From contig NZ_JAABOO010000001.1 in NCBI RefSeq assembly GCF_010671605.1, positions 1,302,001 to 1,366,000 of the forward strand: a stretch of 64,000 nucleotides of DNA. Direction: 5' to 3'. The notes under the pieces are model-generated. The model did not search any database and was not told the origin of the DNA. It worked only from the letters and a program-made list of their open reading frames with translations. Positions 8,871 to 12,106 of this stretch are shown here, piece after piece; the stretch's first letter is position 1, and each line of letters opens with the position of its first letter. Position numbers and translations under genes: made by a program. This stretch comes from Leptobacterium flavescens. GTDB taxonomy: Bacteria; Bacteroidota; Bacteroidia; Flavobacteriales; Flavobacteriaceae.

Positions 8871-9224
8871 ATGAAAAAAGAAGCAAAAACTGACAATAAT
8901 ACACCTCAAAATGATGCCTCCTCTAAAATAGAGGTCATCAAAAACCTCATCTTTGGGGAAAATATTGAGGCCTATAATTCGGAATTCGACAATCTCAAGA
9001 ACGATATCCTTAAGAAGAAGAAAGAGTTGGAGTCTCTGGTGGAAGAAGTGAAAAGCGACTTAAATCAGACACTGGATAATCTCAGTACCGACATCAATAT
9101 CCGGATCACCGAACTGGAAAACTCTCTTGAAGAAAAAGCCGACAACCTCGACGCTGCAAAAGTAGATAAGGAAACCCTGGGTAAACTTTTGGTAGACCTC
9201 GGCGAGAAGATCCGAAATAAATAA
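8871..9224 (+). CDS. Coiled-coil protein, first gene of GTPase signalling operon
   Basis: 117 residues, highly charged. After a polar start and the segment KIEVIKNLIFGENIEAYNSE, residues about 38-112 show heptad-like Leu/Ile spacing (LKNDILKKKKELESLVEEV, LDNLSTDINIRITELE), indicating a long coiled coil. No signal peptide or membrane helix. It precedes the roadblock-like gene by 20 bp on the same strand, so it is likely an adaptor or oligomerisation partner of that module. No catalytic motif; role inferred from position only. Confidence 0.8.
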   Translation: MKKEAKTDNNTPQNDASSKIEVIKNLIFGENIEAYNSEFDNLKNDILKKKKELESLVEEVKSDLNQTLDNLSTDINIRITELENSLEEKADNLDAAKVDKETLGKLLVDLGEKIRNK

Positions 9225-9244
9225 TCATTTCCAAACTTCAGGGG

Positions 9245-10069
9245 ATGAATGAAGATGATAAATTAAATATTCTAAAGGATATACTGCTTACAGACGACCG
9301 TGAGTATGCGGAGTCTATCAGCAGGAAGATCAGGATATTGGAGGAGATCATCGAACAAAGGGAGAAACTCTCCACAAAGGTAGATCCCATTATTGACGAA
9401 AGACTGTCAGAATACACCAAGAGCATCCCCGATACCCTGGGACCGACCATCACCAAAACCCTGAAAAAAGAGATCAAGAATTCCAAAGATCAGGTGGTCG
9501 AGGCGCTCTACCCTATTATGGGTAAGATGATCAAAAAATACATCGCCCAGGAAATAAAACTCCTTACCGAACGCATCAACAAACAGCTGGAAAACAGTTT
9601 CTCTCCCAGAAGCTGGAAAAGACGTTTTAAAGCCTGGTTCGGAGGGGTAAAAGAAGAAGAGCTTATCCTTAGCGAATTATCTTCGGCCCGCATCGAACAG
9701 GTTTTGCTTATAGAAAAGGATTCCGGAATTCTTCTCGGAAGTTATTCCAACACCGAAACCATCGATAAGGATATGATCTCCGGGATGCTGACCGCCATTA
9801 AAAACTTTGTGGAAGATGCTTTCAATCAGGGCGGTCAGAATCTTGAACTTATAGAATACGAACTGTATAATATCCATATTCAGAGTTTTGTTTCCTACTA
9901 TATTGCGGTAGTAGTCTCGGGAAATTACAGTACACATTTTAAAAATCAACTTCAAGACACTATATTTAACTTCTCTGATAATTTCCTTTCGTTGCCTTCC
10001 AGAGAGAGTTTCGATACGGAAACTATTGAAAAAGAATTAACCTATTATTTTAAAAATGACATTGTCTAA
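9245..10069 (+). CDS. Coiled-coil plus roadblock-like domain protein
   Basis: 274 residues. Residues 1-115 are helical and charged. The segment ALYPIMGKMIKKYIAQEIKLL followed by SPRSWKRRFKAWFGGVKEEE and IEQVLLIEKDSGILLGSYSN matches, as I recall it, a module found before OmpA domains in other bacteria. Residues about 150-235 have the order expected of a roadblock/longin fold (VLLIEKDSG, long helix DMISGMLTAIKNFVEDAF, then YYIAVVVSG). No OmpA domain or signal peptide is present. Its stop overlaps the small GTPase start by 14 bp, which suggests it is the GTPase's regulator or partner. Confidence 0.7.
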   Translation: MNEDDKLNILKDILLTDDREYAESISRKIRILEEIIEQREKLSTKVDPIIDERLSEYTKSIPDTLGPTITKTLKKEIKNSKDQVVEALYPIMGKMIKKYIAQEIKLLTERINKQLENSFSPRSWKRRFKAWFGGVKEEELILSELSSARIEQVLLIEKDSGILLGSYSNTETIDKDMISGMLTAIKNFVEDAFNQGGQNLELIEYELYNIHIQSFVSYYIAVVVSGNYSTHFKNQLQDTIFNFSDNFLSLPSRESFDTETIEKELTYYFKNDIV

Positions 10070-10544
10070 AAAAGTGGTTATCCTGGGGCACTTCGGTGTA
10101 GGCAAAACTTCCCTTATCCGAAGGTTTGTAGAGAATAGTTTTTCCGAAAACTACCAGGTATCTATCGGGGTGCATATTATGAAAAAGGAGGTGGAGGTTC
10201 CCGAATCCGAAAATGTTACCCTTATTCTCTGGGATCTGGAAGGAACAGACGATATAGAAAAAGTAAGACAATCATATTTACTGGGGACCCATGGTCTGAT
10301 CTATGTATTTGATGTGACCCGGCCTACTACTTTTCAGAATATCAACAGTGATATTGAGGCACTTTCGGCCAAACTTCCCGGTGTTCCCCTTCAACTCATC
10401 GGAAATAAAATCGACTTGGTCGATTTAAATGAATTAAAGAAACTCCTGAAAGAGAACAAAATAAAGTATGATTACCTTTCCAGTGCCAAGACGGGAGCCC
10501 AGGTAAATGAGCTTTTTACCGACCTGGCCAAAGCCCTGAGTTAA
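10056..10544 (+). CDS. Ras/Rab-like small GTPase
   Basis: 162 residues, a bare G domain. G1 is GHFGVGKTS (residues 11-19, Lys17). Switch I reads YQVSIGVHI, with Ser36 where Rab proteins have Thr. G3 is WDLEGTDD (Asp60, Gly63), G4 NKID (117-120) and G5 SSAK (142-145). The position of the Ras Gln61 catalytic residue is Thr64, so intrinsic hydrolysis may be slow. There is no lipidation signal. It is translationally coupled to the roadblock-like gene (14 bp overlap) and followed 1 bp later by a histidine kinase, as in MglA/MglB-type polarity or signalling switches. Confidence 0.88.
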   Translation: MTLSKKVVILGHFGVGKTSLIRRFVENSFSENYQVSIGVHIMKKEVEVPESENVTLILWDLEGTDDIEKVRQSYLLGTHGLIYVFDVTRPTTFQNINSDIEALSAKLPGVPLQLIGNKIDLVDLNELKKLLKENKIKYDYLSSAKTGAQVNELFTDLAKALS

Positions 10545-10545
10545 T

Positions 10546-12081
10546 ATGCTTGAAAATTATAAAAAACAGTATCTCAACAGCAAAGTTCAGTTTATCCTGA
10601 CCGATCCGGGCGGGCGTATTTTGGAAAGCGATCAAATGCTCTTCAAAGTATCGCCGGGAGAAGCTGTATTCGATCTGCACCCGTTTTTCCTGTGCCTGAT
10701 AGATTACCTGGAGAATCCTTCTTCAGGCCTCACATATACCTGTGTGCACCTGGAATTCGGGAAGAAGAAACTTATCTGCGATATAGATATTCACCTTTCC
10801 GAGGATCAAAAGCAGCTAGTGATCGTTATTCACGACCTCTCCGATCATTATCTGTCCTATCAGACCCTGGCACAGGCACGGAATGAGTCTATCATTAAAT
10901 CGGAACTGGTAACCCTGAAGAATATTGAACTGGAGGAAAGGGAGAAATTCAAGAACAATTTTATCGTGAATTTTTCTCATGAGTTACGCACTCCCTTAAC
11001 CAATATTATTTCCTTTGCCAATCTTCTGGGCAAAACCAGCCTTACCAATGAACAGATCCAGTATATTAAGCTCATACAGGATTCCAACTCCAATCTAAAA
11101 CTCATGCTGGAAGATATCCTGAATATAAACAGGATCGCTTCTGGCAAGCTGAACCTTCAGAAAAAATTATTCAACCTCTACGATCTGCTGGAAGTCCTTC
11201 GTCTGACCTATGGCCATAAAGCAGCCAATAAAGGCCTGGATTTTGTACTGGAACTCGATGAAAATATTCCGGAATTTGTAGAAGGCGACAGGCTCAGGAT
11301 CAACCAGGTATTGATCAACCTCCTGGAAAATGCCATAAAATACACCCAAAAGGGAAGCATCCATTTTAAGGTAAAGCTGAATCAGAAAAGGGCATTTAAA
11401 GCTAATATCCATTTTGAGGTTTCCGACAGCGGGATAGGGATCCCGGAAGATCAGCTGGACACCATCTTTGAAAGCTTTACGCAGCTCAACCCCAAAGGAA
11501 GTGCTGCCGGAACCGGCCTGGGGCTTACCATCGTAAAAGGTTTGCTGACTTTGATGGGAAGTGAGATAAAAGTAAAGAACAACAAAGAGAAGGGAACCAC
11601 TTTCTATTTCGATATCAACCTGAAGTACCCGATAAAATCGCTTGAAAAATCATTAAAAACCAATAAAAAGATCACCGAAAAAGGGCCTACGATCATTCCC
11701 GGCGATAAAAAATTCAGGTTACTGCTGGTAGAAGATGATGAGAACAACCAGATGATCCTCTTTAAGACCCTGGTAGAAACACATCACTTTTACATAGATC
11801 TAATAAATGATGGTGAAAAAGTACTGGAAGAGGTGGTCGAAAATGAATTCGATATTATTTTAATGGATATCAATCTCCCCAATATCCAGGGGCATATGAT
11901 CGCTAAAATGATACGGGAATTACCGTTTAAGGAGCTGAGGAAAATACCTATTATAGGAATTACAGCCAATGCCTTCCCGGAAGACATCAAAGCGTATAAA
12001 AAGGCGGGAATGAATGATGTTATTTTAAAGCCCTTCGATGAAAAGGCATTGCTCAATACGATCTACAAAAGATTAAAATAA
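10546..12081 (+). CDS. Cytoplasmic hybrid histidine kinase with receiver domain
   Basis: 511 residues. The first 110 form a PAS-like fold with no membrane helix. A short coiled coil leads to HisKA with FSHELRTPL (His145), then HATPase_c with NLLENAIKYT, DSGIGIPEDQ and GTGLGLTIVKGL. A C-terminal receiver starts near residue 391 (LLVEDDENNQ), with the phospho-Asp in LMDINLP near 440 and Lys in LKPFDE near 493. Its start lies 1 bp after the GTPase stop (TAATATG), so GTPase state may control kinase activity. An intrinsic terminator follows. Confidence 0.92.
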   Translation: MLENYKKQYLNSKVQFILTDPGGRILESDQMLFKVSPGEAVFDLHPFFLCLIDYLENPSSGLTYTCVHLEFGKKKLICDIDIHLSEDQKQLVIVIHDLSDHYLSYQTLAQARNESIIKSELVTLKNIELEEREKFKNNFIVNFSHELRTPLTNIISFANLLGKTSLTNEQIQYIKLIQDSNSNLKLMLEDILNINRIASGKLNLQKKLFNLYDLLEVLRLTYGHKAANKGLDFVLELDENIPEFVEGDRLRINQVLINLLENAIKYTQKGSIHFKVKLNQKRAFKANIHFEVSDSGIGIPEDQLDTIFESFTQLNPKGSAAGTGLGLTIVKGLLTLMGSEIKVKNNKEKGTTFYFDINLKYPIKSLEKSLKTNKKITEKGPTIIPGDKKFRLLLVEDDENNQMILFKTLVETHHFYIDLINDGEKVLEEVVENEFDIILMDINLPNIQGHMIAKMIRELPFKELRKIPIIGITANAFPEDIKAYKKAGMNDVILKPFDEKALLNTIYKRLK

Positions 12082-12085
12082 AAAA

Positions 12086-12106
12086 CCCTGACGATAGATG
12101 TCAGGG
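12086..12106. terminator. Intrinsic terminator, probably bidirectional
   Basis: CCCTGAC (12086-12092) pairs with GTCAGGG (12100-12106) around a 7-nt loop. A T-rich tail follows on the plus strand and an A-run precedes it, so it can serve both the kinase and the convergent terB-like gene. The tail overlaps the end of the latter gene. Confidence 0.8.

Follow-up and report, generated by a model that had tools for sequence, protein, structure and literature searches.

The 64,000-nucleotide stretch of the Leptobacterium flavescens genome analyzed here (contig NZ_JAABOO010000001.1, positions 1,302,001 to 1,366,000; called the window below) harbors an operon in which a Ras/Rab-like GTPase is encoded together with a soluble hybrid histidine kinase (HK). 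Four co-directional open reading frames on the forward strand span positions 8871 to 12081 and encode a coiled-coil protein (CC), a second coiled-coil protein with a predicted longin/roadblock-fold domain at its end (RB), the GTPase and the kinase (Table 1). A preliminary description of this DNA had claimed four tightly packed genes, and its reading frames and successive gaps of 20, -14 and 1 bp were confirmed exactly. Most of its assignments stood as well. Gene 1 has weak Pfam matches that are of coiled-coil type only. The product of gene 3 matches PF00071 (E 1e-32) and has Rab23 and other Rabs as its nearest solved structures. Gene 4 carries HisKA, HATPase_c and Response_reg domains and is membrane-free as claimed, with a maximal 19-residue Kyte-Doolittle value of 1.33; a hydropathy scan found a membrane-like segment in none of the four products.

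Gene neighborhoods of this kind have been described before. Wuichet and Sogaard-Andersen (2014; PMC4316618) described the 'Group 1 Rup' neighborhood, with Bacteroidetes among the taxa, and grouped its GTPases close to eukaryotic Rab/Ran/Ras/Rho. No Rup protein had been characterized experimentally at that time, and our literature search found no experimental study of one since 2014. PMC4316618 lists three neighbors: a coiled-coil protein of the cytoplasm, a second protein whose domain is unassigned and which often has a membrane helix plus OmpA, and an output protein whose N-terminal region contains an invariant Gln. The output is typically a HK or an enzyme of c-di-GMP turnover (diguanylate cyclase or phosphodiesterase, DGC/PDE). 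The same authors noted that the G3 Gln is missing in Group 1 Rup, suggested its supply in trans and put forward a complex like that of conservons. The window encodes a single-domain Ras-like GTPase below 240 aa with Ras/Rab-like motifs from G1 to G5 (among them G1 GHFGVGKTS, G3 WDLEG, G4 NKID and G5 SAK) and T64 instead of the catalytic Gln, next to a coiled-coil gene, a conserved-domain protein without Pfam match and a hybrid HK with an invariant N-terminal Gln (Gln110). Only the optional transmembrane (TM) helix and OmpA domain are absent. By each feature that can be tested in the sequence, the window operon is a Group 1 Rup system in a flavobacterial, fully cytosolic form. Gln110 is presumably the invariant Gln that PMC4316618 reported for the output N-terminal regions. 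At the Ras Gln61 position a Gln is found in just 7 of 127 GTPases. A separate observation concerns the Ras Ala59 position, where 126 of the 127 have a Glu (WDxEG motif, compared with DTAGQ in eukaryotic Rabs); a catalytic or switch role of this near-invariant Glu62 is possible.

Table 1. Positions of the operon genes, their domains and key residues, and of related output proteins (window coordinates unless a locus is named).
Feature	Position	Strand	Description
Gene 1 (CC)	8871..9224	+	117 aa, soluble coiled-coil protein; from the reading frame and weak coiled-coil-type Pfam matches
Gene 2 (RB)	9245..10069	+	274 aa; long helical N-terminal half, C-terminal domain of predicted longin/roadblock fold
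Longin/roadblock-fold domain of gene 2	9656..9994	+	residues 138-250; predicted order b-b-a-b-b-b-a-a
Gene 3 (GTPase)	10056..10544	+	162-aa Ras/Rab-like GTPase, Group 1 Rup type; 14-bp overlap with gene 2
Switch I Ser36	10161..10163	+	Thr at the same position in 111/127 relatives
G3 residues E62-G63-T64	10239..10247	+	Glu (10239-10241) at Ras Ala59 position; T64 at Ras Gln61 position
Gene 4 (kinase)	10546..12081	+	511-aa soluble hybrid histidine kinase: PAS-like, HisKA, HATPase_c, REC
PAS-like N-terminal domain and signal helix	10546..10974	+	residues 1-143; common to all outputs of the system
Gln110	10873..10875	+	invariant, 123/123 full-length kinases
His145	10978..10980	+	HisKA phospho-acceptor; kept in 121/122 kinases
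HATPase_c domain	11284..11622	+	PF02518, E 2e-27
REC (receiver) domain	11722..12063	+	PF00072, E 3e-22
Asp441	11866..11868	+	receiver phospho-acceptor, present in the window kinase; K/N/S/A/T in 38/122 relatives
Inverted repeat	12086..12106		T-rich tails on both strands; between gene 4 and a convergent TerB-like gene
Sigma-54 (AAA+/Fis) activator, kinase-type N-domain	L081:2402-4156	-
Sigma-54 (AAA+/Fis) activator, kinase-type N-domain	L082:2395-4179	-
Sigma-54 (AAA+/Fis) activator, kinase-type N-domain	L192:6925-8670
Standalone PAS + pseudo-DHp protein	L053:5996-6598		about 200 aa
Standalone PAS + pseudo-DHp protein	L062:4418-5014	-	about 200 aa
Standalone PAS + pseudo-DHp protein	L063:6226-6828		about 200 aa
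Standalone PAS + pseudo-DHp protein	L065:4432-5028	-	about 200 aa

The four-gene system is real, old and widely conserved. We examined 120 flavobacterial loci, the window included and some genomes fetched twice, and the order CC-RB-GTPase-kinase is kept in 119 of them; a chance co-location of the four genes is ruled out by this conservation. The overlap between the RB and GTPase genes is usually 14 or 20 bp. Of 249 genomes sampled from the family, 54 gave a match to the gene 2 protein, 50 to the GTPase and 51 to the kinase N-domain. GTPase and N-domain occur together in 50 genomes, every one of which also has gene 2. Among the four additional gene 2 entries, the copy in G160 is broken by three stops, that in G177 is a fragment at a contig edge, G168 is matched weakly and G277 has a diverged orphan. 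At least 546 encoded relatives turned up when named genomes were scanned, and the matches listed include Kordia, Sinomicrobium, Cellulophaga, Maribacter, Muriicola, Aquimarina, Nonlabens, Ulvibacter, Lacinutrix and Tamlana. Gene order beyond close relatives and co-occurrence are thus both conserved across dozens of genera, and the preliminary description is not refuted by its own test of gene order. Many loci share the genomic site of the window (lysC, gnat, fbp / TerB, mfd), while 52 loci lie elsewhere, and the four-gene set therefore stays together at other sites too. In a GTPase tree that left out the 71 Rup sequences of PMC4316618, the window copy adjoins a Maribacter/Cellulophaga/Euzebyella clade whose copies sit at such other sites. 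A recent horizontal gain of the operon as a cassette was considered and rejected. One genome of the same genus (G175) has an empty site (L209:7271-8840), with 97 bp between fbp and the TerB-like gene; its fructose-bisphosphatase is 95% identical to that of the window and the 3.2-kb operon is absent, which amounts to presence/absence within one genus. Since the insertion site is the same in many genera, old presence with repeated loss is favored.

The preliminary description had called gene 2 'roadblock-like', which holds at the level of fold but finds no roadblock-family match by sequence. In an AlphaFold2 model the C-terminal domain consists of strands 149-157 and 163-168, a helix 175-195, strands 201-205, 208-214 and 218-225, and helices 230-248 and 258-269. 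Foldseek gave as best PDB matches the Ykt6 longin, LC7 dynein light chains, the RagA/RagC C-terminal domains, Ragulator and Mon1-Ccz1 (best E 1.4e-4; TM-scores of about 0.45-0.66 depending on target length, for single-domain matches). The model has a mean pLDDT (predicted local distance difference test) of 73, roughly 65-90 across the domain. A longin/roadblock fold of the gene 2 C-terminus is thus well supported as a prediction; because model confidence is moderate, the choice between longin and roadblock is not well supported. Gene 2 has no meaningful Pfam family match and no PF03259 (Robl_LC7), and this family was found by sequence neither in the whole genome at E <= 1 nor in 12 Rup-bearing relatives. 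Profile searches with gene 2 and its domain against PDB sequences returned nothing significant (BET5, TRAPP, E 1). A few RB members match Fuz_longin_1 (E 0.0018; MON1/FUZ) and Intu_longin_1 (E 0.011; CCZ1/INTU), weak matches that agree with the predicted fold but do not demonstrate homology to the longin/roadblock families. New here is that the domain called unassigned in PMC4316618 is predicted to have a longin/roadblock fold.

The window copy of gene 2 has neither a membrane helix nor OmpA, and in this it is typical of its family. The flavobacterial proteins are of a short form (267-307 aa, n=119) with hydropathy above 1.6 in just 2 of 119, whereas homologues from other classes have about 590-636 aa and a hydrophobic segment. 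Five out of five of the latter that were scanned against Pfam match OmpA, one slightly under the cut-off. A relative from the same class (L189) has a short gene 2 as well (280 aa, with a borderline hydropathy of 1.71). We report as a new feature that essentially all of the 119 flavobacterial copies lack the membrane helix and OmpA domain of the other-class copies; the envelope anchor was lost, or was never present, throughout the lineage.

Residues 1-143 of the kinase are modeled with confidence (pLDDT 92). In the model a PAS-like domain leads into a long signal helix, and its structural neighbors in the PDB are PAS/LOV proteins, so that the earlier 'PAS-like' assignment is borne out at fold level. 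The helix that carries Gln110 begins directly after the PAS core. N262 and K495 are kept in all 122 kinases. The receiver Asp has been lost in several clades, with Lys in the Ulvibacter group, Ser in Nonlabens and Ser/Ala/Thr in relatives of Tamlana/Algibacter. Its loss in 38 of 122 kinases, together with a His145 that is kept in nearly all, means that the receiver is often a pseudo-receiver, and this repeated loss of the phospho-Asp from kinases that retain the His is a new finding. A further observation was made where tandem hybrid kinases follow one GTPase (L060, L066, L070, L073): the second kinase always has Asn in place of the receiver Asp.

The output proteins of relatives vary behind a constant N-terminal part. 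Outside the Flavobacteriaceae the PAS-like N-domain is followed by PAS, sigma-54 AAA+ and Fis helix-turn-helix (HTH) domains (L081, L082 and L192 by Pfam); L191 is of the same activator type by profile and length, and the N-domain profile matches both L191 and L192. At two other Bacteroidota loci (L195, L197) a sigma-54 response regulator of NtrC type comes after a simple kinase. Relatives from Ulvibacter/Cochleicola have the gene order CC-RB-GTPase1-[PAS+helix, about 200 aa]-GTPase2-kinase, and their two GTPases fall into different clades of the tree. The standalone proteins of this arrangement keep a hairpin-like helical tail and have lost the phospho-His, and they may possibly act as dominant-negative or decoy kinase subunits. 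They mostly retain F47, D79, Y102 and Gln110 and mostly lack N113, E133, K136, F139 and H145. Gln110 is found in 9 of 10 distinct standalone N-domains and also in the sigma-54 activators L081 and L082. As standalone copies keep Gln110 and lose the linker residues and H145, Gln110 appears to belong to the PAS/GTPase function and not to kinase coupling. Also new is that the outputs have one part in common, a PAS-like domain with an invariant Gln at its end, which is carried by kinases and by sigma-54 activators and, next to a duplicated GTPase, stands by itself.

From the genes, folds, conservation, co-occurrence and modular output exchange described above we infer physical binding, a direction of control, roles as guanine nucleotide exchange factor (GEF) or GTPase-activating protein (GAP), a phosphotransfer target and a sensed signal. 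The model that we consider best, and on balance probable, is a linear chain from a CC/RB platform to the GTPase, the PAS domain and the kinase. In this chain, the products of genes 1 and 2 would form a platform that binds the GTPase and sets its nucleotide state as GEF, GAP or scaffold. The loaded GTPase would bind the PAS-like domain and, via the Gln110-bearing signal helix, raise or lower His145 autophosphorylation. Phosphate would then pass via the receiver to a histidine phosphotransfer protein (Hpt) encoded elsewhere, or, in lineages with an Asp-less receiver, from the kinase straight to a regulator that is not linked to the operon. The chain is suggested by the RB fold, by the PAS-Gln domain that is constant in all outputs and by the duplicated GTPase and PAS pair. 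The preliminary description had already suggested that the GTPase may set kinase output. This is the most economical reading because the PAS-like N-domain stays with the GTPase when the output changes. Its idea that a GTPase switch is joined to a two-component kinase is right but not new, since PMC4316618 proposed such a link in 2014. The suggested role in polarity or gliding found no support, and literature searches gave nothing specific. Partial distance correlations after removal of the genomic background are 0.41 for CC-RB, 0.49 for GTPase-PAS and -0.01 for CC-GTPase, in loose agreement with the chain.

Several observations speak against this chain. The GTPase-REC correlation is 0.57, as strong as that of GTPase-PAS, and the distance test is therefore weakly discriminating and gives the PAS domain no special place. 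Gln110 lies in a helix stripe of 3-4 residue spacing (Y102, Q106, Q110, N113, I117), and its invariance could reflect coiled-coil core packing instead of contact with the GTPase. In addition, four loci (L055, L129, L072, L150; three distinct sequences) keep the standalone N-domain although GTPase1 is lost. The main rival turns the flow around: the PAS domain would sense a cytosolic cue, and the kinase as input, directly or as a scaffold, would set the state of the GTPase as output. The argument in PMC4316618 that the GTPase is the output in conservons favors this, and so does the finding that the operon has no response regulator next to it and none in recurrent linkage. The frequent loss of the receiver Asp beside a retained His145 points the same way, since it makes a classical receiver output dispensable. 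However, outside the Flavobacteriaceae the same N-domain heads sigma-54 activators, or the kinases adjoin NtrC-type regulators, which places transcription downstream of the shared N-domain, and we regard reverse flow as unlikely.

A sub-model of the linear chain, compatible with it and in our view rather unlikely, concerns the missing catalytic Gln. Here the PAS signal helix would insert Gln110 into the GTPase active site, which would make the kinase effector and GAP at once and the signal self-timing. The scarcity of a G3 Gln in the GTPases fits, as does a Gln110 kept in all full-length kinases and nearly all standalone N-domains though N113 and the kinase-linker residues are not kept there; PMC4316618 suggested a Gln in trans and noted the invariant Gln of the output N-domains. 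On the other hand, Gln110 also suits a polar position in a coiled-coil core, and Glu62 of G3 could itself aid hydrolysis. The fullest version would be a self-timing Rab-like switch: the longin-fold platform loads the GTPase, the GTP-bound form binds the PAS helix and Gln110 of the kinase ends the signal, with the PAS domain as a 'socket' graftable onto kinases, sigma-54 activators and c-di-GMP enzymes, and the kinase-less copy with the second GTPase as a decoy. We offer this tentatively, as it is doubtful in its entirety. That the four genes are co-transcribed neighbors with separate functions is very improbable: throughout the family they co-occur and keep their order almost without exception, also as intact units at other genomic sites, and other classes use these components again.

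Small GTPases paired with roadblock-fold proteins are known from other systems. The window differs from Group 1 Rup as described in PMC4316618 in that its second protein lacks the TM helix and OmpA found there 'often', and among the relatives analyzed the outputs also include sigma-54 activators and standalone PAS-helix proteins; moreover, PMC4316618 predicts no MglB partner for Rup, whereas the unassigned domain is here predicted to be of longin/roadblock fold. Actinobacterial conservons (CvnA-CvnB-CvnC-CvnD) likewise combine a histidine kinase, a roadblock-fold protein and a Ras-like GTPase in an operon, a works-like analogy with Group 1 Rup has been proposed (PMC4316618), and an accessory partner raises CvnA8 autophosphorylation (PMC13343842). 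In contrast to the window, however, the conservon GTPase belongs to the MglA family, CvnB is an MglB homologue known by sequence (Robl_LC7), and CvnA, which has HAMP and LPxR, sits in the membrane; the window kinase is soluble, lacks HAMP and has a REC domain. The window thus contains neither an MglB homologue matching Robl_LC7 nor a membrane-spanning HAMP kinase, and no counterpart of CvnC was found at the operon. The MglA/MglB polarity module of Myxococcus resembles it in the small Ras-like GTPase, the roadblock-fold partner and links to receiver-domain proteins. It differs in that its MglB partner is recognized by sequence, which the window lacks as do its genome and the 12 Rup-bearing relatives, and the window GTPase is Rab-like by its best solved-structure match. 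Eukaryotic longin/roadblock platforms (Ragulator-Rag, TRAPP, Mon1-Ccz1) share the partner-domain fold and the pairing with Rab/Rag-like GTPases, while the window system is bacterial, soluble and coupled to a two-component kinase, and sequence comparison does not demonstrate homology. By pairing a Rab-like GTPase with a partner of longin/roadblock fold in a single bacterial operon, the window offers a candidate for the missing regulator. The outputs swapped behind one PAS-Gln domain suggest a portable GTPase-responsive input. As the version found here is fully soluble, the whole circuit should be purifiable and would allow a direct test of GTPase-to-kinase coupling, so that control of a two-component kinase by a GTPase could be studied in an unusually clean, soluble system.

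The claim that no separate regulator is adjacent was upheld: around 52 relocated copies no neighboring gene recurs in more than 11 loci, the commonest one lying downstream on the opposite strand. A dedicated downstream regulator as missing partner was rejected on this ground. The genome has two stand-alone Hpt genes, at C1:497268 and C1:1116150. One of them neighbors a kinase and a LytTR-like regulator, and no link between either and the operon was found; the relative L189 carries a C-terminal Hpt of its own.

Variants of the gene set were seen in a few relatives. An orphan pair of CC and diverged RB without adjacent GTPase or kinase lies at L078:5297-6560 (- strand) in genome G277, in which no Rup GTPase match was found at E <= 1e-20. 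A 307-aa protein that matches no Pfam family stands between Rup GTPase and kinase at L213:6023-6946 and at L214:4752-5675 (- strand), and the L213 protein has a weak N-domain profile match. Both genomes have CC-RB at another locus, so that the system can be divided between two loci. At the window operon itself, a same-strand gene that we read as fructose-bisphosphatase (fbp) lies 57 bp upstream of gene 1. The count of the Bacteroidota-type promoter motif TAnnTTTG equals chance, and no promoter was assigned. On the other side gene 4 faces the convergent TerB-like gene, and the inverted repeat between them is probably a bidirectional terminator for both; because of this hairpin with its T-rich tails, transcription of the operon very probably ends there.

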